Positions 1 to 25,799 of a DNA stretch of 25,799 bases are shown here, piece by piece. Below the pieces are notes generated by a model, which did not search any database, was not told the origin of the DNA, and saw nothing but the letters and a program-made list of their open reading frames with translations. The stretch's first letter is position 1; every line of letters begins with the position of its first letter. The translations under genes and the position numbers were made by a program. This stretch comes from a virus, in IMG/VR virus record IMGVR_UViG_3300028837_001425, positions 1 through 25,799 of that record, one strand, 5' to 3'.

Positions 1-203
1 GTTCCTGTTCCGTCGGCAGAGATCTTGATTTTACCGTTAGCCGAAGCCTGAATGTAAATTCCGTCGTCATAGAATTCAATTTTCTGCGTGGATGCTAGGT
101 GAATCCCGATGTCACAATCCCCGATCGAGTTGCTATCACCATAACTAACGGTGATACCAGTCCAACTGGTATCAAATCTACCATCGCTCAGGGTGTTGAT
201 TAT
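1..203 (-). other. Partial coding-like segment of a virion/fibre-type protein, leaving the left edge
   Basis: The minus strand is open from 203 to the window edge. From about residue 10 it reads like a phage fibre or virion protein, with motifs such as IEFYDDGIYIQASANG followed by KIKISADGTG, a pattern I associate with beta-rich phage surface proteins. It has no ATG, GTG or TTG start after the in-frame stop at 204-206, so it is not a complete gene as it stands. It overlaps the first ~100 bases of the plus-strand gene, whose own first ~18 codons look less protein-like. The two readings meet at the dyad at 153-173. I infer a rearrangement or assembly join here; the segment is probably coding in its native context. 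Confidence 0.45.
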
Positions 204-1922
204 TCAGGCTTTGTAGTCGGTGTATGGGGAAGTGCGAGCTTGACATCCGATAGCGGGGGAACTTCCAAGAATGCTCTTGGAGGATGTTTTGAGATAAACT
301 TCACAGATACTTACGCTATGACAGGAATGGGATTAGCTGCGGGTGCGTATGTTGGAGCATACTCAGCTAAAGTTGGAACAGTCCCGAATAGCTGTCTCGT
401 CTTGGAAGCTATACCGTCAACCAGCGTAGATTTCACCGAAATGCCTATGCTAGTTATGATGGCTTCGGGAGATGGGACAAAGCCAACGTATCTCTTTGAG
501 ATAGGGCATAAGCAGGCTGCGAAGTATTTTACTCCTGGCGCAGGCGGGCTTCTCTATCATGAGACCATACAGATTAGAGTAAATACTGCTGCGGATTCTC
601 ACCTCGACAGATTTATCCCTATGTCAACCGAAGAAGGCACATACACGACTGCTTATCCGATAATATCTAGCTATTCGGCCGGATCTGCAGTGGCTGTCAC
701 CTCAACCGCTCCGACAACTGCTACCAATGCAATCTCGAGTGCAGTAAATATAACGGACGGTTGGGCGAGCGGAGAGATAAACGCTATCTATGGCAAGGTG
801 ACGATAACTCCCGCTGCTGGAGTGACATACAGTGCTGCTGGGGGTCATTTTGAGCTAGAGATGGTCGGGAACGCGACGAGTGGTCACGGTCTGCTGTGCG
901 GAGCGATGGTTAAATTCACTTCGGACTTAGAGCAACCTAATGCGATACTGTATCTGGAATCATATCCTACTGGATCCTGCGACCTATCCGAGACTCCCTT
1001 TATAACATTCTGTGACTATAAGTCAGGTAGCGGGGTTAAATCTAATACTCTATTCAGGATAGGGGATCCCATGATGGCGCAAGCTATCTCAACAGGAAGC
1101 GGCAAACTCTCTTACAATCAGACGCTTCGGTGCGCTCTTTATGATACCCCGATTTATCTCGTGACTTCAACTGAACAGGGCACCTACACGACTGCTTATC
1201 CGATAGAATCATCGAGTAGAAATGCTTTTAGTTCTGCTGCGATCTTTGTTCCATCTACCAGTGTTGGAACGGATTATGTTTTCGCAATGGGAACATACGG
1301 CACTCCACTTGATGTCACATATGCTTCTGGTGCTGGTGCTCAACATTTCCTCCCATTCCAGATGAATGTCACGCCCATAGGAGCAGACCCAGAATCTTCA
1401 AGCTCAACTAACTTGATGACTTGTGTGATTACTCACGACACTCTTGCTATGCCTCATGGACGACTAAAATGTACAGACTTCTACACCAACATATCAAAGA
1501 ATGTTTTGGATGCTTATGTCTATCAGGGCGAGCTTAATTTCTCTGATAGTTCTGCTTTCAATGAGGCTGCTGCTCTCGGTTTATGCGTGAATGCTAGTAG
1601 TGGAACAGTTGCTGGGAAACTTCGTGGCATAATTGTTCAAATGCAGGGGGCTTCTCAACCAACGGATACAATGGCTATTGAAATTAGAAACATCGGAAGC
1701 GGAGCAACCATTAAGGACGGAGTTATGATGAACGCTGCTGATACAATCACCAACGGCGTAAGAATGTGGGGAGATGTTACGAATGCCTTCGCTTTTGAGG
1801 CTGCTGATACTGGCCCTGTAATAACTGGTTGCGATAATGTTGATGACCGTGAAGGTTCAATAAAGATTACAGTTGCTGGGGTTGCGAAATATCTACACTA
1901 CTGGCCGAATGCAGCATCATAA
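99..1922 (+). CDS. Large repeated beta-structure virion protein (fibre/decoration-like), 5' end uncertain
   Basis: This 607-residue protein, if the GTG at 99 is used, is rich in Gly, Ser, Thr and Ala with alternating hydrophobic residues, as in phage fibre or decoration proteins. It contains tandem units of roughly 180 residues: TEEGTYTTAYPI near residue 180 recurs as TEQGTYTTAYPI near residue 361, encoded by nearly identical DNA at 636-662 and 1179-1205. A third, more divergent unit follows. The C-terminus (SIKITVAGVAKYLHYWP) resembles the surface-strand endings of other phage structural proteins. There is no convincing ribosome site before 99, and an in-frame TAG precedes it at 96-98, so the native N-terminus is probably missing or replaced. 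It lies first in the structural operon, where head proteins might be expected, so a capsid role cannot be excluded. No membrane segment or enzyme motif was seen. Confidence 0.7.
   Translation: MNPDVTIPDRVAITITNGDTSPTGIKSTIAQGVDYSGFVVGVWGSASLTSDSGGTSKNALGGCFEINFTDTYAMTGMGLAAGAYVGAYSAKVGTVPNSCLVLEAIPSTSVDFTEMPMLVMMASGDGTKPTYLFEIGHKQAAKYFTPGAGGLLYHETIQIRVNTAADSHLDRFIPMSTEEGTYTTAYPIISSYSAGSAVAVTSTAPTTATNAISSAVNITDGWASGEINAIYGKVTITPAAGVTYSAAGGHFELEMVGNATSGHGLLCGAMVKFTSDLEQPNAILYLESYPTGSCDLSETPFITFCDYKSGSGVKSNTLFRIGDPMMAQAISTGSGKLSYNQTLRCALYDTPIYLVTSTEQGTYTTAYPIESSSRNAFSSAAIFVPSTSVGTDYVFAMGTYGTPLDVTYASGAGAQHFLPFQMNVTPIGADPESSSSTNLMTCVITHDTLAMPHGRLKCTDFYTNISKNVLDAYVYQGELNFSDSSAFNEAAALGLCVNASSGTVAGKLRGIIVQMQGASQPTDTMAIEIRNIGSGATIKDGVMMNAADTITNGVRMWGDVTNAFAFEAADTGPVITGCDNVDDREGSIKITVAGVAKYLHYWPNAAS
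153..173. repeat. Perfect 9-bp inverted repeat with 3-bp centre
   Basis: The arms GATACCAGT (153-161) and ACTGGTATC (165-173) flank the centre CCA. The dyad sits exactly where the minus-strand coding-like segment meets the plus-strand gene. Because it is in register with both frames, it encodes D-T-S-P-T-G-I on plus and D-T-S-W-T-G-I on minus. A second, smaller dyad (ATCACC at 135-140, GGTGAT at 150-155) lies beside it. It could be a recombination crossover site, a fold-back point or chance. Confidence 0.6.
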
Positions 1923-10498: not shown

Positions 10499-13400
10499 AT
10501 GGCATTAGAATTTGATGGGAATGACCAAAAAGTAACCAATCCTACCTTATTAAATGTTGTTCCTGCAGCAATCAGCATAAGTTGTTGGATTAAAACAGGA
10601 ACTGAGAATGCTGGCATACTTATACACAAAGATAATATTACTGATGAAGATAGATTTTACCTTCAGGTAACTGGTGGAATTATAAACTTTAGAACGGAAG
10701 AAAATAACAATGGTTTCAAACATTTATTCGGAGAAATAGCTATAGATGGTGATAAATGGCATAACATTATGGTAATTTGGGATGGTGGTAGTGGAAAAAG
10801 AATATTTGTTGATAGCGTTCTTGATGTAATAGATGGGGTAGAAACAACGCTGATGAGGAATGGGACGGCTTCAGATTTTAATATCGCTTGTAGTCCAGTT
10901 TTGGGGAACTACTACGATGGTCTCTTTAGTGATGTCCGTGTCTATAATCGTAATATTTCCCTGGCAGAAATAAAATCAATCTATTATGCCCAAGGTGCTG
11001 ATAACATCATAAACGGTCTTTTGGGTCGCTGGCTAATGAACGAAAAGCCAGATGGAACTGCTGCCGCAGGAGCTAATGTAGTAATTGACATATCGGGAAA
11101 TGGGAATCATGGAACGCCTGTCAATGCTCCAGTTTATCGGGCGGGGACTGTGCGGTTGATCCGTCCAACTCTTAAATCACCATTATTAAATTGGACTGTA
11201 CCCAAAGCTCTAGCCGATCCTCTCGCTTTCACTGACACCATTGTCAAGAAACCATCCAGGCTATTAGCGGATACCCTCGCCTTTACGGACGCCATCGCTA
11301 AGTTCACTTCAAAGATCCCATTCACGGACAACCTTGCTTTCACTGATGTTCTCTCCCACGTCGTGATTTGGGGCAAGGCATTAGCAGATTCCATAGGACT
11401 CACAGATTCTTTCATCGCCAAGTGCAAAAAAGTCTTCGCAGATGACTTGACCTTCACGGATGCTATTGCCAAATTCACCACAAAGATCCCATTCACCGAC
11501 TCTCTTGCTCTCACGGATGCTATCGCCAAGGAGACAAAGCGGTTGCTAACCGATGGCCTGGCCTTAACGGACTCACTCCTCGGCAAAATCTATAAAACTA
11601 GGGACATCGTCTACGACATCGTGAGCCGCAGTTGGCTCTCAGCTCATAGCATTAAAGTCATCCTCAATCTCCTCCGCAAATTTGTCTATGACGCCACGCA
11701 CGAAACCTCAAAAATCCAGGCTCTTGGTTCGATCAGCAGAATGGCCTCCAAAATCGTTTCCGGGGGGACTCAGGTAACTCTGGTCAACACGGCACAGTAT
11801 TGGAATAAATTCCTGTCCGACAAGACTAACATTCGGCAGACGGCAACTCTCCAACTCGGAGTCGGAGTTGAGAATACCATCGCACGAGCTGGCGTTGCCC
11901 GAGCGGGAATCACCGTAGCCAATTTAACCACGCTCAAGACCGGCAGCGTGGTCTCCAGCGGGATTTTCGTTCCCGGTGCGGGTCAATGGTTTGATGTTCT
12001 AACCGGTTGGGGGGATGATCCGCTTTTCCAAGGCTCTTATACCACTTTAGCTATCCGCGATAAATTTGCAGGACTTTTCGAGAAAACTATTGGCAGCCAA
12101 GCGGCACCCGTAGATTTCTATTCCATAGCTCATAACCCCGCTGACCTCGCCTGGCATATTCTCGTGGATTATGGCGGGCTGGATTCAACGGTTTCCACCG
12201 CTAATACGGACATTGATTACACCACGTGGTTGAGCTGGTGGACGGACTGCGACACCGTTAGCCTCTCGCTCGAAGCACGCTTTAACGGACAAACGGTCAA
12301 ACAGGCTCTTCAACTCGTCAGGGACCTTTCCAATAGCGGGATATTCGTAGCAGGAGATGGCAAGCTCAACTTCTTCAGGTTCAAGCAAGCCGCAGCGCCA
12401 TCCTCCCCACAGCATTATACAACCCGCACTATGAAGGACTTCTCCATTCGATTAGATGATTCGCAGATCCTCAATTATCTTCGCACTTTTTATGACCTGG
12501 AGATCGCAGACACTATAGTTACCAACGGGGATATGGAAGCCGCAGATAGCTGGACCACCGCTGGCGCAAACACGAATGAGCGGTCGAATGATCGGGCTTA
12601 CCGTGGCACTTATTCCAGAAAGATAATTACCGACAAATGTTTCGAGGGAGTTTACCAGAATCTCACCACCGTGGTTGGCAAAAGATATTCAGCCACCGCT
12701 CGTGTGTACGTCACAGCAGGTGAGGCCATCATCGGCATCGGCCCGCGAAGTATATGCGGTCTCGCAGGCGGCACGGTAGGTGCAGGCGGCACCCTCGCAG
12801 CTAATACGGTTATGTTTCAGCCTTTTCAGTCAGGCTTTAGCGGTGATGTCGATAGAATAGTTGCTAAAATCGACCCAGGGGTTTCGCCTCCGTATACAGT
12901 GAAGTTAGCCCTCTATGAACGCACGGATTCCGGCGAGGGCGATTTCTTGAAAGCCACGGAAGAAAAGGAGATTAGTGTTGACGAATGGGCTTCCTTTGAG
13001 TTCACCAGTCCCGTAACTCTCGTTAGCGGCTCTTGGTATCAGCTCGCGATCTGGACACCAGACTTCGGTGTCTCAATGGACATCTGGTCCGGTGGCGCAA
13101 ATCGGTGGCATCATACAAAAGACTACAATAGTTGGCCATCAGCGGTTGTTGGAGCTCTCGCTGCACCCCACGGCTCTCGTTTTTGGTTCGCCGGACAGGA
13201 GGCCATTGCTCTCTCCGCTCCTGCCGATGCCGCCGAGTGGGTAGAATTGAGCTTTAACTTCACTGCTACGTCCACGACCTCCAGACTCTTTCTTGAGTCC
13301 AATAATGCTGATGTCTCAACATTCTACGTTGATGAGGTCGTTGTCCGAGAGATTCTTGATGAGGAGTTTGCGGGCTCCTATCTCAAGGAGGATCCTACCT

Positions 13401-13705
13401 CTCAAGGTCATTACGGGACTTCCGATCACGTCACTGACGGTACCGTAGTCTGGCACGCTAATAGCCCGAGCGCTATTGCCTACACAGATCGCCGTATCGA
13501 AATTCATAAAGACCCCCTCGCAGTCATCGCCTTCACTTCCTTCCTCATGGGTTTTAATAACGCTCTCGGCGATATTATCCAAGTCACTCACTCATTCCAT
13601 GCTTTGGATGCAGATTATTTCAGAATCTATAAAATTCTTGATATCAACCTAGCCGCGGCAACCATAACCTTCGAGGCCGCCGACTTCGCTGACATCACAC
13701 CATAA
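10499..13705 (+). CDS. Lectin / LADxLxFTD-repeat / tail hub fusion protein
   Basis: This 1068-residue protein starts at ATG 10499 after AAAGGTG. Residues 1-165 form a LamG/concanavalin-A-like domain (LEFDGNDQKVTNP, CWIKTGTENAGILI, DGDKWHNIMVIWDG, FSDVRVYNRNIS); residues 172-210 complete it (GRWLMNEKPDG...SGNGNHGTP). Residues 236-362 hold seven degenerate repeats of about 20 residues with core LADxLAFTDAIAK. Residues about 405-670 and 955-1068 resemble a baseplate hub with tail-protein ending (DADYFRIYKILDIN). Between them, residues 673-740 and 905-950 look like one carbohydrate-binding jelly-roll (TNGDMEAADSWTTAG...FYVDEVVVREI) that is itself split by another beta domain at about 760-895. The DNA is AT-rich up to about 11190 and then returns to the operon's usual composition. 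It likely forms the tail tip and binds host glycans. Confidence 0.75.
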   Translation: MALEFDGNDQKVTNPTLLNVVPAAISISCWIKTGTENAGILIHKDNITDEDRFYLQVTGGIINFRTEENNNGFKHLFGEIAIDGDKWHNIMVIWDGGSGKRIFVDSVLDVIDGVETTLMRNGTASDFNIACSPVLGNYYDGLFSDVRVYNRNISLAEIKSIYYAQGADNIINGLLGRWLMNEKPDGTAAAGANVVIDISGNGNHGTPVNAPVYRAGTVRLIRPTLKSPLLNWTVPKALADPLAFTDTIVKKPSRLLADTLAFTDAIAKFTSKIPFTDNLAFTDVLSHVVIWGKALADSIGLTDSFIAKCKKVFADDLTFTDAIAKFTTKIPFTDSLALTDAIAKETKRLLTDGLALTDSLLGKIYKTRDIVYDIVSRSWLSAHSIKVILNLLRKFVYDATHETSKIQALGSISRMASKIVSGGTQVTLVNTAQYWNKFLSDKTNIRQTATLQLGVGVENTIARAGVARAGITVANLTTLKTGSVVSSGIFVPGAGQWFDVLTGWGDDPLFQGSYTTLAIRDKFAGLFEKTIGSQAAPVDFYSIAHNPADLAWHILVDYGGLDSTVSTANTDIDYTTWLSWWTDCDTVSLSLEARFNGQTVKQALQLVRDLSNSGIFVAGDGKLNFFRFKQAAAPSSPQHYTTRTMKDFSIRLDDSQILNYLRTFYDLEIADTIVTNGDMEAADSWTTAGANTNERSNDRAYRGTYSRKIITDKCFEGVYQNLTTVVGKRYSATARVYVTAGEAIIGIGPRSICGLAGGTVGAGGTLAANTVMFQPFQSGFSGDVDRIVAKIDPGVSPPYTVKLALYERTDSGEGDFLKATEEKEISVDEWASFEFTSPVTLVSGSWYQLAIWTPDFGVSMDIWSGGANRWHHTKDYNSWPSAVVGALAAPHGSRFWFAGQEAIALSAPADAAEWVELSFNFTATSTTSRLFLESNNADVSTFYVDEVVVREILDEEFAGSYLKEDPTSQGHYGTSDHVTDGTVVWHANSPSAIAYTDRRIEIHKDPLAVIAFTSFLMGFNNALGDIIQVTHSFHALDADYFRIYKILDINLAAATITFEAADFADITP
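11204..11584 (+). repeat. Protein-coding tandem repeat, LADxLAFTDAIAK type
   Basis: Seven degenerate in-frame repeats lie in residues 236-362 of the hub fusion protein. Examples are LADPLAFTDTIVK, LADTLAFTDAIAK, FTDNLAFTDVLSH, LADSIGLTDSFIA, FADDLTFTDAIAK, FTDSLALTDAIAK and LTDGLALTDSLLG. Spacing is 18-22 residues. The repeats probably form a stalk between the lectin and the hub. Confidence 0.8.
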
Positions 13706-16513: not shown

Positions 16514-19500
16514 TTATCTAACTCCTTCCTCAATATAGTATTGTTCCGTGCGTCGCTCACCCGGCAACGCTCCCCTTCTCATCACCCACACCGCAGCACC
16601 CGCACTCTCCCGTTTTAGCGTCACATAGCCTTTTAGCGCCTTCCCCTTGAACTCCAGGGAGATGAACATTTCACTCTCCTCAATCGCATTCACCTTTCCT
16701 TGATCAAGGATTTTCATATATGCGGGGATCCGTTTATTAGGATTTCCCCATTCAGGGTGCCCTGGCGGGATTGTCCCCTCCCACTTCATCCAATCTCTGA
16801 AGTTTCCTCCTTTTGGTGTCCCGGTCTTAACCTTTTTCCGAAAAGCCGGAATCCCTCTCTCCAGGTTCTCAACTATCAATGGATCCTTTTCCAAGTTAAA
16901 CTCCTCCAGGTAATCTTTGCCGGTATCAATCAGGAGGTCCCAATGCTGCACGGGCATAGCCCGCACTACAATCTGGCCCCTCCACCAGTGCCGTCGGACT
17001 GTAAAGCTCCCCATCGCTTCCTCAACTCTCTTCAACGGCCGTGCTTTCAACTCGCCTTTCTCAGCCAGGTAATTAAACGCCTGGTCCATTCGGTCCAGCT
17101 TTTCCGATCTACTCAATTTCCTGCCCCACCATCTTAGCATGTGCGGGATCTTCTTCTCCCACTGCGGCGGTAGCCCAGATGCCGTAGTCTCCTCCCCATT
17201 TGGCACGTAGTCTCTCTTCAATCTTGCACGACGTGTCAGGAGGTATGGCGTCTGCTCCTTCAAATTAAACCAGCATTGCCATTGTAACTTTCCTTTCGGC
17301 GGTTTCTTCCACTTCTCACCGACTCCGATCAATCGCACTACCATTCGCCCCTTATAGTGCTTCATATCCAAGAAATACTCTTCAAAGTATGGCTTTTTGA
17401 CAGTCAAGTATGCATAACCAGTGTCTTCCTGGACTACAACGCCCCATTCAAACCGCGTTGCCGTCACCGAGCCCGGCTCCGCAGCAGCAAATTTACCCAT
17501 CCCCTTATCATCCCATTTTAACCATATCGTAGGCTGTTTTGCTTTTCTTGTGGCCACAACGTGAGTCGCTGGATCCATGTCAGGTCTCAATTTCCATCTA
17601 ACTTTTTCCTGCCAGTGCCTTCCATCCTCGACCGTTTCAACATCTTCTGTTACTTCACCCTCAGGTTGATCCATTATAGTCCAACCACGGAGATGCTCAT
17701 TCAGTTTCACTCTGAAATCCTTATGCTGAGACCGACCCCTAAAATGATTTTGTATCACAGCCCAGAATCGCGGTAGTTTCTTTGCCGCAGCGCCAGCTCG
17801 CCGCAGCGCCGCTCCAAATCCAGGCTCTCTCTCTGTTTCCTTGAGCTCTTCTTCATTCGGGCTCCAATCATACCGTCCTTCTATGAAAGCCCGCTCTCTC
17901 AGCAAGCGATAGACTTCATTTCGTTCAATCCTATACGTCTCATGCAACCACTCTTTGTACTCATCCTTACTCAGGTACTCGACTTCAACGTTTTCAACCA
18001 GATCCTCGTAGACCCGGGCTCCATCCTTGGTAATAGTTTTCTGTCTCAGGATCAGATTCCTCCGTGCTTCGCTAACGACTTCATCCACACTATCAGGTTT
18101 TCCAGCTACCGCTTTCATAAATCTCGGCACCCAGGCCGTGATCTTCACCGTCCCGGATCTCTCATCCTTCACGAAGTTCAGTGTCTCGAATTCTATCTCA
18201 ATCACGCTTCCACGTCCAACTTTCTTTTTGGTACTGAACGTCTTGCCAACCTCCATCCACTCTCTACCACTAACTTCAGATAGATCCCCAGGCTTTACTT
18301 TATATTTCCCCTGGTCAATTCCGTAGCGATAGTTATACACCCCTCGCACCGTAGTCTCGATAGCCTCGATCACGATGCCTTCCAACATTCCCGTGTTATG
18401 CAATTTGAACCAACCATTGCGCGAGTTCCGGTCCAGGTAATAGATAGCTTTGTGCTTCTTGACCACCACGCCCTCAGATCCGGGCCGCTTTCTCAGATCT
18501 GCTATGGCCGCCTTCAACTCCCCGGTGTTTTTTGCCGTCCGCGAGGGCGCTAGGTTCAACCGATACTTTAAGTCTGGCTCGTCCACCGTTGTCTGCGGCC
18601 AGCCCATTCCCTCTAATGCTTTCCTACGCTCTGCCTCACTCTTTTTATGCAGATCTTCACCCTCCAGGAACACAACTCCATAGACGTTGGTTACGATGTG
18701 CGAGTCATCCGGCTTGCTGTGGGAATGTAAGTACCCGGATACTACCTCCCGCGGTAGGTGCTTATTCCCCTCCCAGGCTTCCAGTTCCCCCAAAAACTTC
18801 GCTGTCTTAGCTTTGAGTCTCCGTACGGCCTCAACGGTCTTCGGCAGCCTGGCTGTGTTATCCTCACCATCCTCGGAGATGATCGTAATTTTATCCCCAT
18901 CTTTGGTGAACTCATGGTTCGCACCATCGTACTTCTTCTCCACATTCGCAGGGAAGTCCTCCTCCTTAAAGTATTTGAGCAGGGATTCCAGCGTCATCCG
19001 CTCCTCGGGCACGGCGGGTCTCGTCGGCTTCAGGGTCAGAAAATATCTCTCGAGTAAAATCTTGTCCTCTCTGAGTGATGCTGCTGCTTCATTTCTAAAC
19101 TTCGCAGATCCCTCTCGAGAGGATTCCAACCCCAGAGACTCATAAAACTGCTCGATGAATCCGGGCTCGTTCATCTCAATGAATTTCAATTCCTTTGTCG
19201 GCACCAGGGCCAAATCCCATAGCGGTAAGTTTCTCCAGTTGGACCCAGCAGAGCTCGCGTGTGGACACGACTCTACTCCGAAATACCTCTCGAATATCCG
19301 GTTCACTTTCAACAGCAAATCTTTGTTTACCTCATCGTCTCGGAACACAGTATCCAGGTCATTCGGTAAACGGTTCTCCACAAACGCAGCCGACCCCGTT
19401 AGAGCTATGTACTTGTCCTTCCAGATGATTTGACCGAGTTTCTGGATCTGCTTTGCTTTTTCGATTAAGAAGCCATCGAGCTTTCCTTCTGTTAAACTCC

Positions 19501-21061
19501 CTGTCAATCGCCCCAACTTTCCTTCAAATCTCGCACGCAATCCTCGCTTTTCGATCTCTTCTCTTACAAGGAGATAGGCATTGATGACCAACTCATCTCC
19601 CTCTTTTGCTCCCCGCTCCTCGAAGATTTGACATAGTTCTTTTTGCACTGCTATCAGGTCTTCATCGGACAGCTTTTTTAACTTCCCAGGCTCGTAGTCC
19701 TGGGGATTGAACCTCTGCCCTTCCACCAACCCATCTTTAATATCCGGGTTAGGATTATCACCGAATTTTTCAGCAGCTTTCCCATCCTTCACGGCCTTCA
19801 CGTAATCAATATCGTCCCATTTATCCTTACCCCATTTCTTAAAATGCCCTTTACAGAACCACGCGTGCCCCATACCCTCCGCCCACTTCACTTCATACTC
19901 AGGAGGCTTGCTACACTCCATACACTGGTCACGCCGATGCCTCGCTTCCTTCATCGCCTCCTTGACGCACTTCTCAATTTTCTCCGCAAGACTTTCCCAC
20001 CAGGAATCCCATCCGTCTTGACCATAGTATATTTTCCCAGCTACGCAAATCCTTGCCCGACCTTCTGTCCCAATATCCGACAGCGCATAAATTCCATCCT
20101 CTTTCAGCTCCAGCTCCTTAGCAAGTTTTTTCGCATTGCTATCTTTCTCCTTATCCTTAAATCTAAATACAACGTAGCTCACTCGCTCAAGAGAATGACC
20201 CTCGCAGCTCGCTCGGATCTCAATTCCAGCAATATTATTCAGGGCATCAAACCATTCTCGCTTCAAATGCTCATCAATCATTATGCCATTTTTCCACTCT
20301 TTCTCCGGCCCCCCAGCTCGACCAGGTATCCATTCCTTAGGCTCTTTTCCATAAACTGTCATATAAGCGAAAGTCGGAGAGTTAATTTTTTGCTTTTGCC
20401 ACGAGGGGGCACTTTCATTCAATCGTGCACGTTCCCCGTAGGTCTGGATCCCTTTCGGGACTCTAACGTGTCGTGGTTTTTCCAGGGGGATCCACGTTCG
20501 TAGCTTGTAGAAATACAGCTCCTTTTTCTCCGGCCACCATTTCTTTCGTTCTCCTGGATGTATTCTGTGCTCAGAACTCAGTTTCCCGAATTCATCAATC
20601 GTGATCTTTTTCCCTTCTTCAAATCGGGCGAATCCGAATTCATATTCCGGGCCTACGATGCTAACAAACCCTCCCTGGATAAATTTTCGCGCGTGGACCG
20701 TAGCCGTTTTCCTGCCTTTGTAAATCAGCTCCGCATGAGGCGCTACCAAATATCTAAACCTGGTTATTAGTTTATTAAAAGCCTCCAGATATATTTCTTT
20801 AGCGTATTTTTTCCAACTCTCGGGATGGAATTCGGTCGAGCCTTCTCTTATAAGCTCGCGCAGGCAGGGGACCAGGAAGGTGTTTAAGATCTCATTCTTT
20901 GAATACTTAAACTTTCCCTTTAATTTTAGCGTCGTGTACCAGCCTCCGAAGATCCTCCAATCATCTCTGGTTCGTTTGAGGTCAATTATCGTCTCAATCT
21001 TCGGTTTGTACGGTAGGACCGCCTCCAACAATGCTGTTTCTCTAGTCATCTGCCAACTCAT
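16514..21061 (-). CDS. Giant nucleotidyltransferase / ATP-DNA-ligase / LigD-type phosphoesterase fusion
   Basis: This 1515-residue protein follows the portal with a 20-base overlap. Residues 1-370 are unassigned and include an ASCEGH motif (284-289). Residues 380-406 form a CxxC/CxxxH zinc knuckle (CMEC, CKGH). Residues 551-621 show a minimal nucleotidyltransferase: TGSAAF, then NDLDTVF, then WDLALVP. Residues 700-890 are an ATP-dependent DNA ligase adenylation domain: KYDGAN with Lys710 as the AMP-binding residue, FLGELEAW (motif III), GVVVKK (motif IV), GWFKLH (motif V). An OB-like domain follows to about 985. Residues 1098-1260 match the LigD 3'-phosphoesterase pattern (QNHFRGRSQHKDFRV with GWTI), and 1353-1400 repeats it (RRHWWRG...QHWDLLID). 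It probably repairs or processes DNA ends, linked to packaging by its position. The motifs are seen in the sequence; the role is inferred. Confidence 0.78.
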   Translation of the reverse strand: MSWQMTRETALLEAVLPYKPKIETIIDLKRTRDDWRIFGGWYTTLKLKGKFKYSKNEILNTFLVPCLRELIREGSTEFHPESWKKYAKEIYLEAFNKLITRFRYLVAPHAELIYKGRKTATVHARKFIQGGFVSIVGPEYEFGFARFEEGKKITIDEFGKLSSEHRIHPGERKKWWPEKKELYFYKLRTWIPLEKPRHVRVPKGIQTYGERARLNESAPSWQKQKINSPTFAYMTVYGKEPKEWIPGRAGGPEKEWKNGIMIDEHLKREWFDALNNIAGIEIRASCEGHSLERVSYVVFRFKDKEKDSNAKKLAKELELKEDGIYALSDIGTEGRARICVAGKIYYGQDGWDSWWESLAEKIEKCVKEAMKEARHRRDQCMECSKPPEYEVKWAEGMGHAWFCKGHFKKWGKDKWDDIDYVKAVKDGKAAEKFGDNPNPDIKDGLVEGQRFNPQDYEPGKLKKLSDEDLIAVQKELCQIFEERGAKEGDELVINAYLLVREEIEKRGLRARFEGKLGRLTGSLTEGKLDGFLIEKAKQIQKLGQIIWKDKYIALTGSAAFVENRLPNDLDTVFRDDEVNKDLLLKVNRIFERYFGVESCPHASSAGSNWRNLPLWDLALVPTKELKFIEMNEPGFIEQFYESLGLESSREGSAKFRNEAAASLREDKILLERYFLTLKPTRPAVPEERMTLESLLKYFKEEDFPANVEKKYDGANHEFTKDGDKITIISEDGEDNTARLPKTVEAVRRLKAKTAKFLGELEAWEGNKHLPREVVSGYLHSHSKPDDSHIVTNVYGVVFLEGEDLHKKSEAERRKALEGMGWPQTTVDEPDLKYRLNLAPSRTAKNTGELKAAIADLRKRPGSEGVVVKKHKAIYYLDRNSRNGWFKLHNTGMLEGIVIEAIETTVRGVYNYRYGIDQGKYKVKPGDLSEVSGREWMEVGKTFSTKKKVGRGSVIEIEFETLNFVKDERSGTVKITAWVPRFMKAVAGKPDSVDEVVSEARRNLILRQKTITKDGARVYEDLVENVEVEYLSKDEYKEWLHETYRIERNEVYRLLRERAFIEGRYDWSPNEEELKETEREPGFGAALRRAGAAAKKLPRFWAVIQNHFRGRSQHKDFRVKLNEHLRGWTIMDQPEGEVTEDVETVEDGRHWQEKVRWKLRPDMDPATHVVATRKAKQPTIWLKWDDKGMGKFAAAEPGSVTATRFEWGVVVQEDTGYAYLTVKKPYFEEYFLDMKHYKGRMVVRLIGVGEKWKKPPKGKLQWQCWFNLKEQTPYLLTRRARLKRDYVPNGEETTASGLPPQWEKKIPHMLRWWGRKLSRSEKLDRMDQAFNYLAEKGELKARPLKRVEEAMGSFTVRRHWWRGQIVVRAMPVQHWDLLIDTGKDYLEEFNLEKDPLIVENLERGIPAFRKKVKTGTPKGGNFRDWMKWEGTIPPGHPEWGNPNKRIPAYMKILDQGKVNAIEESEMFISLEFKGKALKGYVTLKRESAGAAVWVMRRGALPGERRTEQYYIEEGVR

Positions 21062-22427
21062 TCTTCTCTTTCTTCTCTTCCGGCTCTTTCTTTTTCCCCT
21101 CTTTTTCCTCTGTAGGTGTTATCTCCAAGCCCAACTGACCCATCATGAAGGCAAAGATCCGTTTTGCGTCCTTCTCCTCAACCCACTGCTTCTCAACCGC
21201 CTTCTCCAGCGCTTCCATCACGAATTTCATACCAAGCGCCAGGGTATAAACATCCTTCTCCAGAATTTTGGGGAGGTTCACGGAGCAAGTTTGGTCAACA
21301 TCCTTTTTTAACCGCTGATGAATAATTGCTTGGTGGATCACATATTTGAAGATATCTAAGATCATGTGTTTGAACACCAACTGGCGTGATTTTAACCGCT
21401 TAATCACCGGCGTAGCCATTTCCAGCGCCGTCGCTCTCGTTATTCCTTCTCCGCCAGCGTACCAGTGCGGGGGCAACCCAGCTCCCCCGAGCATGTGGTT
21501 CTTAAATAATTTTGCTGATTCACTCGTCTCACGTGAACCCAACTCGGGTACGACCGCATTCCACTTCACCCGTTCATTATGAGCTCTGATTGACGCAGGC
21601 TTGGGGACACTTTGGTCGTCTAGCCATTTATCAATCTGGATCTGGTCATATCCTTCCAAAGTCACGTCCCAGAGGAACACGTTCATTAGGTGTGAGCGCT
21701 CCAGCGCATTGAAAAGAAACTGGTCGAAACCATCGATCCAATCCGACAGCGTGAATAAATCGCTCCGTCCTCTCTTGGAGGTTGTTACCTTGTTCACCGA
21801 GAAGAAAAATATGTCGCCTACCATCTTCTCAAACGTTGGCGATCTCGGGTTATCATCTTCCCGGATCACATCGTATGTTTTCTGCGGAGCCGTTAGCGAT
21901 CCCTTGCGCTTCACCTGCCAGGCGATCTCAACATTCTCAGGGTCGGTCACGACCCGGGCTACGGATACCGGATCCAAGTATCCCATCCTGACCTTGCCAT
22001 TCTGGTCATTTACGGCCACGGGATAAAATGCTTCGCCCCACAATCCCAACTCCAGGATCCGCTGTCCACCCTTGCGGTCCCACGCGTTCACCGAGTCATC
22101 CCAAAATTCTTTCAGGACCCCCTCGACTTCCGGGTCCTTCGCCGAGTATTTCACGCCCTCACCAACCACAAAGTCCTTGATTAACTCCAGGAGCCGGTGC
22201 GCAAATATATTTGTATCATACAAGTAGAACGCTATCTCCTGCATCCTCTCCTGGCTCATGGGCGCCAGATCTCTCTTCGGATCATCCGTCAACGACCTGA
22301 AACCCTCATCCTCCTTACGTCCAGTGTATATCGCTTCCTTCATCACTTTCTTTTTTATGCTTTCTTCCATGTTCTTTACGAAACCTTTGCCTAGCACGGC
22401 GTCCGCTACGCGTTCACGTATTCGCAT
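21042..22427 (-). CDS. Portal protein
   Basis: This 461-residue protein starts in a 22-base overlap with the terminase gene, behind GAGGAGAAG. Typical portal features are the N-terminal helical lead, RLLELIKDFVVGEGVKYSAK, the stretch GQRILELGLWGEAFYPVAVN with GKVRMGYLDPVSVARVVTDP, a strand IFFFSVNKVTTSKRGRSDL, and the long helices around FNALERSHLMNVFLWDV. A GLPPHWYAGGEGITRATALE block precedes the C-terminal crown helices. The last 30 residues are a Lys/Glu-rich tail that encodes the start of the next gene. It forms the dodecameric DNA gate at the head vertex and binds the terminase. Confidence 0.88.
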   Translation of the reverse strand: MRIRERVADAVLGKGFVKNMEESIKKKVMKEAIYTGRKEDEGFRSLTDDPKRDLAPMSQERMQEIAFYLYDTNIFAHRLLELIKDFVVGEGVKYSAKDPEVEGVLKEFWDDSVNAWDRKGGQRILELGLWGEAFYPVAVNDQNGKVRMGYLDPVSVARVVTDPENVEIAWQVKRKGSLTAPQKTYDVIREDDNPRSPTFEKMVGDIFFFSVNKVTTSKRGRSDLFTLSDWIDGFDQFLFNALERSHLMNVFLWDVTLEGYDQIQIDKWLDDQSVPKPASIRAHNERVKWNAVVPELGSRETSESAKLFKNHMLGGAGLPPHWYAGGEGITRATALEMATPVIKRLKSRQLVFKHMILDIFKYVIHQAIIHQRLKKDVDQTCSVNLPKILEKDVYTLALGMKFVMEALEKAVEKQWVEEKDAKRIFAFMMGQLGLEITPTEEKEGKKKEPEEKKEKNELADD

Positions 22428-24217
22428 TTTCTTCTCCTCACCATGTATCCTCGCTTTCTCATTTCGTCAAACCGCGATTGCACATCTCTATCTTCCTTTC
22501 CATCTTCTTTTTTTTCATCACCCGGGTCTTTGCTTCCACTGGCTGCCTCAACCCGTTCTCCCTCCTGCATACAATGGAAGCCCACGGCTGCGGCAGCATC
22601 AATAATATCCTTGGATCCCCCTGGTCGGTGGTCAACTTTCTTCCCCTGTTTGAGAATCAGCTCCTTCCCCTCATCTCTCAGCTTTTTATTCGGATATGTC
22701 TCTAGGTCTGCTCCGTATATTATTTCCTTCAGGGTATCGTGCTGTTCCTTCAAAACATACAGATTCTCCGGTTTAATGTTTTTCTTCCTCAGGGCTTGCC
22801 ATACGCTCACGGCAGCCCAGGTATCAAACGTAGCCTTCTTGATCTTAAATTTCCTTCGGACGATTTCGAGGATCATCTGCTTAATCTCATCCACGTCCAC
22901 TTCACCCTCCCGGGACTGGAATCCATGAGCTAGGTCCAGGATCACCCTATTTCCTAACCGATGGCCCAGGCAGAGCCCGAACGCATCATTCCTCGCACTC
23001 GGATCCCCATGCAAATAGTAATCAAACTCAGGATTGGGCTTAAAGCTGTCTTTCAACGCCCCCTTAGAATCAATCGGGTTCTCCATTCCCAGCTTCTTGC
23101 TCTTCTTATACATATCCTCCAGACGAGATGGCACGCGATAGTAGGCCTCGGCGGGTTTACTCGGATCTGCACCAAAGTCCCTCTGCGCTGCCTCCGGGTT
23201 CTTCATAAACTCGTATTTGAAGCGCTCCCTCGGCAATTTGGGGTTCATCTCCCAGGTAGCGAGTTTGAATCCCAGCATATTCGGGATCTTGCGACTCAGC
23301 TTATACAGGCTCATAATCTTGTCACGCTCCCACAAGGGGGAGCTAATACTAACAATCCTTCCCTCTTCCTCGAATGGCTCCACGGAGCGGGTCAAACTGG
23401 TATAAATGGCCTCCGCTGAGTTCTTACCCCCCGAGTCCTTGAATCTCGCCAGCTCATCAAAGAGCACCAATTTCGCTAACTTTCCCACGATCGAGGCACT
23501 ATTGCTGTGCCCGCATCGGATTCTCACCTTACTATCCCGGAATTCTATTGTCTTTCCCACTTCACTGTATTTCCGATACCTCTCATAAAATGGCGAGTTA
23601 CGTACCCTGGCTGACACTTGCGCGTAAATCGTATCCTCTGCCTGGTCCTTACTCGTTGCCACGTTAATAATATAGATCTCTTGCCCCTTGGGGAACCCAT
23701 AGTGCTTGCACGCATCCCCCGTGCTCGCCAGCAGGTATTCCTCGTAGCAGGCAATCACCGAGGCCAGGATTGTCTTCCCACCCTTCATCCCCGCTACTAC
23801 CACCAATTCCCGGTACTTCTGGCCTGGCTTATACGTGGTTTTACCATGCCTGGCCACTTCCATCAGCATCGCCGTATCCTCATCCGTCATAGGCAACTGG
23901 TAGTACGCTTTCAGGATCAATTCTTGCATAGGGTTTAGTTTGAAATCTAGGAAGGCAGGATCCTCGGCAAATTCAAGGATATTCAAATCTCCGACCCAGT
24001 CGAGGACCGGGGGCGCAGTCTTCTCCTTCAATCCCTCGGCATTCTCAATCGCGGCTATCTTCAGAGCATCCATCGGCTCGCTTAAATATCGGTGGACACT
24101 CTCTCGGGATACCTTCAACTCCTCTCTTATTTCGGTAAGGGTATGGCCACGCTTTTTGAGCAACTGGGCTCGGTAGGATCTTCGCCAGCGATTGACGGTC
24201 TTAGTCGGGGTGGCCAT
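22406..24217 (-). CDS. terL: Terminase large subunit with N-terminal helix-turn-helix
   Basis: This 603-residue packaging motor starts at ATG 24217 behind GGAGGAATA. Residues 22-46 (KRGHTLTEIREELKVSRESV) form a helix-turn-helix usually found in the separate small subunit. The ATPase has Walker A GMKGGKT (143-149), Walker B LVLFDE (250-255) and the coupling motif SISSP (290-294). The nuclease has HGDPSARND (Asp405), TFDTW (Asp465) and KDIIDAAA (Asp537 and Asp540). The C-terminal 45 residues are a charged linker and a basic end. No separate small terminase is visible upstream, so the N-terminal domain may supply DNA recognition. Portal follows directly, as is usual. Confidence 0.9.
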   Translation of the reverse strand: MATPTKTVNRWRRSYRAQLLKKRGHTLTEIREELKVSRESVHRYLSEPMDALKIAAIENAEGLKEKTAPPVLDWVGDLNILEFAEDPAFLDFKLNPMQELILKAYYQLPMTDEDTAMLMEVARHGKTTYKPGQKYRELVVVAGMKGGKTILASVIACYEEYLLASTGDACKHYGFPKGQEIYIINVATSKDQAEDTIYAQVSARVRNSPFYERYRKYSEVGKTIEFRDSKVRIRCGHSNSASIVGKLAKLVLFDELARFKDSGGKNSAEAIYTSLTRSVEPFEEEGRIVSISSPLWERDKIMSLYKLSRKIPNMLGFKLATWEMNPKLPRERFKYEFMKNPEAAQRDFGADPSKPAEAYYRVPSRLEDMYKKSKKLGMENPIDSKGALKDSFKPNPEFDYYLHGDPSARNDAFGLCLGHRLGNRVILDLAHGFQSREGEVDVDEIKQMILEIVRRKFKIKKATFDTWAAVSVWQALRKKNIKPENLYVLKEQHDTLKEIIYGADLETYPNKKLRDEGKELILKQGKKVDHRPGGSKDIIDAAAAVGFHCMQEGERVEAASGSKDPGDEKKEDGKEDRDVQSRFDEMRKRGYMVRRRKCEYVNA

Positions 24218-25221: not shown

Positions 25222-25440
25222 TTCATTCTCCTTTCACGTAGATTAGGGTTTAGCGGTCTCATGTTACACATTTTTTTAAGCGACCGAAATATATATATCA
25301 AGTTGATTCTTTCTAACTTTCAAAAAAAGAAATTCTCTCTCTCACTCACACAAATAGTTTACTCTATTTCTTCATCAAGTCAAGTCCTAGCCTCGCAGGT
25401 ATTGTCCAGTTCACGAATACACACTTTCCTCCCAGGGGGA
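25222..25440 (-). promoter_or_regulatory. AT-rich leader with promoter-like sequences for the minus-strand operon
   Basis: No gene was seen here. Read on the minus strand, TTGACT (25378-25383) is separated by 16 bases from TAAACT (25356-25361), a fair sigma-70-like pair. A second candidate is TTGAAA (25318-25323) with a TATATA-type element around 25290-25297, at a longer spacing. Homopolymer runs of A and T and a TC-rich stretch (25331-25350) fill the rest. A 6-bp hairpin (CCTCCC/GGGAGG, 25428-25442) separates this leader from the word array. Confidence 0.45.
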
Positions 25441-25442
25441 GG

Positions 25443-25799
25443 TCTAACCGTAGGTTGATACGTTAAGACATTACGAGGTTAAGACGTTGATCTACGTTAA
25501 GACGTTAAGAGGTTAACGTAGGTTGGTACGTTAACGTAGGTTGAGAGGTTAGCTTACGTTAAGAGGTTGATCTACGTTGAGACGTTAGTCTACGTTAATA
25601 CGTTAACACAGGTTGAGACATTAAGAGGTTAGCTTACGTTAAGAGGTTGATCTACGTTGAGACGTTGAGAGGTTAATACGTTAACGTAGGTTAAGACACT
25701 AATGTAGGTTAACGTAGGTTAAGACATTAAGAGGTTAGCTTACGTTAAGACATTACGAGGTTAAGACGTTGATCTACGTTAAGACGTTAAGAGGTTAAC
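25443..25799. repeat. Array of 8- and 10-nt GTT-words, running off the right edge
   Basis: From 25454 to 25793 the DNA divides with no remainder into 39 words: 25 of 8 nt and 14 of 10 nt, plus a truncated word at the edge. The commonest are GTTAAGAC (8 times), GTTAAGAG (4), GTTGATCTAC (4), GTTAACGTAG (4), GTTGAGAC (3) and GTTAGCTTAC (3). Five of the 39 begin ATT or ACT instead of GTT; all end AC or AG. Stops occur in all frames, so it is not coding. Strings of words recur: 59 bases at 25459-25517 are repeated exactly at 25741-25799. It lies upstream of the terminase operon. A packaging, replication or partition site is possible but unproven. Confidence 0.9.

Follow-up and report, generated by a model that had tools for sequence, protein, structure and literature searches.

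Gene surroundings and make-up of the array

The window is the whole stretch of DNA analysed, i.e. an IMG/VR record of 25,799 bases; the genome beyond the record is absent. Its left 16 kb contains tail genes in the opposite orientation to those at the right, where the minus strand carries a few small genes followed by those for the terminase TerL, the portal protein and a protein of 1515 aa (Table 1), all running away from an array of short words at the end of the contig. The sequence-only reading had placed this array upstream of the terminase operon, and this location holds. As for pac and cosB sites, the array (25454-25799) lies close to the packaging genes, the TerL operon starting ~220-340 bp off and reading away from it. 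The same arrangement is found in a related contig, L008, with unrelated words at the same place. Two other proteins of the window deserve mention. The 1515-aa protein is far longer than its ligase domain, and viral contigs yielded no relative of it; a 1068-aa protein of the tail region (window 10499-13705) has an N-terminal laminin-G-like lectin domain (PF13385) and is without match in annotated phages.

Table 1. Coordinates of features in the window and, where stated, in contig L008
Feature	Position	Strand	Basis or remark
1515-aa protein, directly after portal gene	16514-21061	-	ATP-dependent DNA ligase domain PF01068, residues 696-887
Portal protein, next operon gene after TerL	21042..22427	-	phrog_10963, E 2.7e-43
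TerL; N-terminal HTH at residues about 5-46 (window about 24080-24205)	22406..24217	-	PF03354 and PHROG terminase matches; HTH by sub-cut-off Pfam matches and AF2
TTGACT-16-TAAACT, a promoter-like pair that points to the terminase and lies between the first gene and the array	25356..25383	-	Weak (see shuffles in text)
Degenerate edge word CTAACCGTAG, preceding the array	25444..25453	+	Read from sequence; 7/10 bases in common with GTTAACGTAG
Word array: 15 word types, 39 words in all, each 8 or 10 nt long	25454..25793	+	Exact parse, randomised controls
59-nt stretch with exact copy at 25741-25799 (last bases of the contig)	25459..25517	+	Assembler may have stopped or looped
GTTAAC, opening of the next word, truncated where the contig ends	25794..25799	+	Sequence
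L008 block A	1-226		28 consecutive 8-nt words, mainly TTTGGGTC and TGAACTTC
L008 block B	about 387-624		8- and 10-nt words TTTGGACA, GAGTGACC, GAATGACC and TTTGAACTTC, plus two 7-nt units
L008 hexamer block	about 690-905		GATTTT/GGTTTT/GACTTT-like; adjoins the 8-nt word arrays

The array divides without remainder into 25 words of 8 nt and 14 of 10 nt, which bears out the parse and the number of variants (about 15) proposed earlier from the letters. GTT opens 34 of the 39 words and AC or AG closes every one of them, again as had been described. The commonest word is GTTAAGAC (n=8), followed by GTTGATCTAC, GTTAAGAG and GTTAACGTAG (n=4 each). After a rotation by two bases and with few departures, the words share a core A[C/G]GTTRR, which is followed by 1 nt in those of 8 nt and by 3 nt in those of 10 nt. 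Since the last six bases open another word, the array runs past the contig end. A hairpin with a 6-bp stem, CCTCCCAGGGGGAGG, occupies window positions 25428-25442, exactly at the opposite border.

The array is real and not a product of chance. The 8/10 parse gives 34 canonical words (GTT...A[C/G]). Among 2000 randomised sequences (first-order Markov) the highest count was 8, and parsing the array with other pairs of lengths (7/8, 8/9, 9/10, 7/9, 8/11) yields only 0-13. The spacing between successive identical 6-mers is even in 243 of 243 cases. Recurrence of 7-mers reaches 0.88 in the array (randomised sequence: mean 0.13, maximum 0.29) and stays at or below 0.17 throughout the window left of 25100. 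No ORF of at least 60 aa is contained in the array, in agreement with its description as non-coding; units of 8 and 10 nt shift the frame and the words carry stops, which excludes a protein-coding repeat. The contrast drawn earlier with iterons and CRISPRs also stands: unit lengths are mixed, and the words are contiguous, whereas CRISPRs combine constant repeats with unique spacers. A minisatellite has one unit repeated head to tail; for this array, Tandem Repeats Finder (TRF) returns ten alternative rows, whose periods lie between 10 and 106 nt, and autocorrelation peaks at 18 nt (8+10).

Strings of words recur exactly, as the sequence-only reading had pointed out: 59 nt (25459=25741), 43 nt (25544=25624) and 29 nt (25616=25722). 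These repeats indicate that strings of words, and not single bases, were copied. The 39 words contain no odd-length indel despite many substitutions. Exact duplication at the level of words and the lack of such indels support the suggestion that the array probably grew by slippage or recombination of composite units. As the contig terminates in the 59-nt exact internal repeat, the length, copy number and order of the array near that end are untrustworthy, and an assembly artefact has to be considered. This explanation is extremely improbable, given that 15 word variants stand in a non-trivial order and that an array of this kind occupies the same position in an independent contig, which comes from another metagenome.

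A counterpart in a second contig

Contig L008 (IMG/VR, 4475 bp) encodes a TerL 61-63% identical to that of the window, with the portal gene downstream, and is the sole close relative found in the TerL search. Its repeats form three blocks upstream of the TerL operon, likewise at a contig end (Table 1). Block A is nearer to a simple repeat, with a period of 8/16; in block B, the register of the first three words was corrected by eye. None of the 10-nt words of the window and only one of its 8-nt words, occurring once, is present in L008, and alignment of the interval between array and genes in the two contigs gave no convincing conservation. Both the word grammar and the positional counterpart are demonstrated. 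The two contigs have position, non-coding nature and quantised word length in common, and the words are entirely different. Upstream of the TerL operon, L008 positions 1016-1200 include a 15-nt inverted repeat (1042-1056/1169-1183) and a 160-nt stretch with the near-duplicate GATTCTARCGGTTGTARAGT on either side; this is possibly a structured leader, and Rfam gave no match.

No sequence similar to the array DNA was found in phage, plasmid or viral-contig collections; within these collections, the result bears on the case of an ordinary repeat spread through a host genome, named earlier as one that would undermine the interpretation. The L008 array gave only a 37-bp, chance-level plasmid match (E 0.2). 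Relatives were sought among viral contigs, with TerL, the portal protein and the 1515-aa protein as queries, and among genome contigs, with TerL alignments; only L008 proved to be close. In 23 other viral contigs, TerL is 24-32% identical and arrays are absent; repeat density is 0.66-0.85 in the arrays of the window and L008, as opposed to about 0.30 or less in these contigs and several named phages. Two candidates were discarded. An 18-nt string of the array matched four viral contigs (L004-L007), but in all four this is one and the same site of a single phage locus that has no array, i.e. a chance match; and nothing comparable to the array lies near the terminase of Gordonia phage Demosthenes, whose TerL matches from residue 23. 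Descriptions of such arrays were not found in the open-licence literature.

A candidate reader and rival explanations

Pfam searches with the N-terminus of TerL gave sub-threshold HTH matches, Terminase_5 (gpP-like) among them. The full-length TerL model was poor (pLDDT 36) and the N-terminal HTH alone was used; AF2 predicts three helices, with a pLDDT of about 80 for the window protein and about 90 for that of L008. The L008 model can be superposed at 0.9 A (40 columns) on the DeoR DNA-binding domain and at 0.6 A (35 columns) on rudivirus ORF55, but with Foldseek E-values near 1, so that only a general HTH fold is claimed. In the alignment, this segment is absent from the TerL homologues of other phages. 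Between the window and L008, identity is 35% in the HTH and 60-84% in the ATPase core. Such faster divergence would be expected of a reader co-diverging with its site, although N-terminal domains often diverge quickly for other reasons. The small genes between array and TerL match no small-terminase family, and a separate small terminase was recognised in neither phage; such families are so divergent that a member might escape recognition.

Because TerL bears an N-terminal HTH, a multi-copy protein-binding site, as suggested earlier, is plausible for the array. Our tentative reading, with a probability of roughly 0.36, is that of a real non-coding cluster of short predicted sites for protein binding, bordering the packaging operon on its upstream side and most likely serving packaging initiation by the TerL HTH. 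Binding, the packaging role and the mode of growth are what we infer, as follows. Each word, with its core and a spacer of 1 or 3 nt, would be one contact site, many copies providing avidity. The most likely reader would be the HTH of the phage's own TerL, acting in place of a small terminase, and the array would be a cosB- or pac-like initiation region, placed as in lambda directly ahead of the terminase genes. The array would lengthen or change as whole words are copied by unequal recombination or template switching; its location and unit length (8 or, less frequently, 10) would persist through the turnover of its vocabulary.

The main rival, itself rather unlikely, is a neutral or selfish minisatellite in the non-coding gap between early and late genes, where repeats turn over by slippage and recombination and no protein binds. 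Words unrelated between the window and L008 are in line with it, as are the hexamer (GATTTT) repeats beside the word arrays of L008, such as a repeat-prone gap may accumulate, and the absence of a folding signal from word order. Yet the phage genome is compact and otherwise devoid of such repeats, both relatives have arrays at the same place, and the words have accumulated many substitutions and not one odd-length indel. That folding result also bears on a transcribed structured RNA, in which the plus strand of the array would act folded. The strand does fold better than its dinucleotide shuffles (z -5.8), but 51 of 60 random permutations of the words fold equally well or better, which means that the fold comes from near-palindromic words and word composition; with no Rfam match up to E 1 among 4227 families, a role as RNA structure is highly improbable and was rejected on the word permutations.

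Two further explanations appear distinctly unlikely, to a similar degree. A replication origin, whose iteron-like sites would be bound by a phage initiator with its gene in the missing part of the genome, would account for small repeated sites at a boundary of transcription units and for the 18-nt autocorrelation peak. Against it, iterons usually hold to one unit length while the array mixes two, and the replication genes are not in the window. No adjacent initiator gene was recognised in this incomplete genome. A cluster of operators or enhancers that controls the late (packaging) operon through a phage or host regulator would fit the position of the array end ~60 bp upstream of the promoter-like pair in the window and that of TTGACA-16-TAGAGT between repeats and genes in L008. 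Promoter-like hits in both contigs are, however, no commoner than in shuffled sequence.

Several considerations count against the packaging reading as well. A single close relative is a thin base for it; a length of 340 to over 600 bp would be large for a packaging site; and words of 8 and 10 bp are out of helical phase. In addition, the DNA-binding domain of the SF6 small terminase binds pac DNA with little preference for its repeats (PMC4737164).

Likeness to known systems and significance

Phage packaging sites, such as SPP1/SF6 pac, the R sites of lambda cosB and the hexamers of P1 pac, are likewise clusters of short direct repeats beside or within terminase genes, and the lambda R sites are read by an HTH protein. 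They consist of a few boxes, equal in length and separated by gaps, whereas the array has at least 39 contiguous words of two even lengths, totally replaced from one relative to the other, and the HTH forms part of TerL itself. Replication iterons of plasmids and lambdoid phages are also directly repeated protein-binding sites in non-coding DNA; they have a single and usually longer unit, in few copies beside an initiator gene. Bacterial minisatellites and the short tandemly repeated repetitive sequences of cyanobacteria share the arrangement of short intergenic units head to tail. In these, only one unit is repeated, whereas the array combines 15 words of strictly 8 or 10 nt at one locus only. 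Eukaryotic centromeric satellites offer no more than an analogy, in that place is kept, sequence turns over and the DNA-binding partner evolves fast; common descent is absent, and scale and context differ. Clusters of short sites at control loci are already known. What sets the array apart from pac/cosB, iterons, CRISPRs and minisatellites is the combination of two strict even lengths, a combinatorial vocabulary and its full turnover at a fixed place.

It is tempting to go beyond a packaging site and to envisage a satellite-like packaging locus of quantised 8/10-nt words, whose place is kept and whose vocabulary is replaced in co-evolution with the TerL-fused HTH, each lineage packaging only DNA that bears its own words; we consider this unlikely. 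How terminases recognise their own genome is poorly understood for most phages. If the proposal is true, the array and the fast-diverging HTH of TerL would constitute a natural experiment in the co-evolution of reader and site, and both packaging specificity and satellite-like turnover in a virus would become directly testable.
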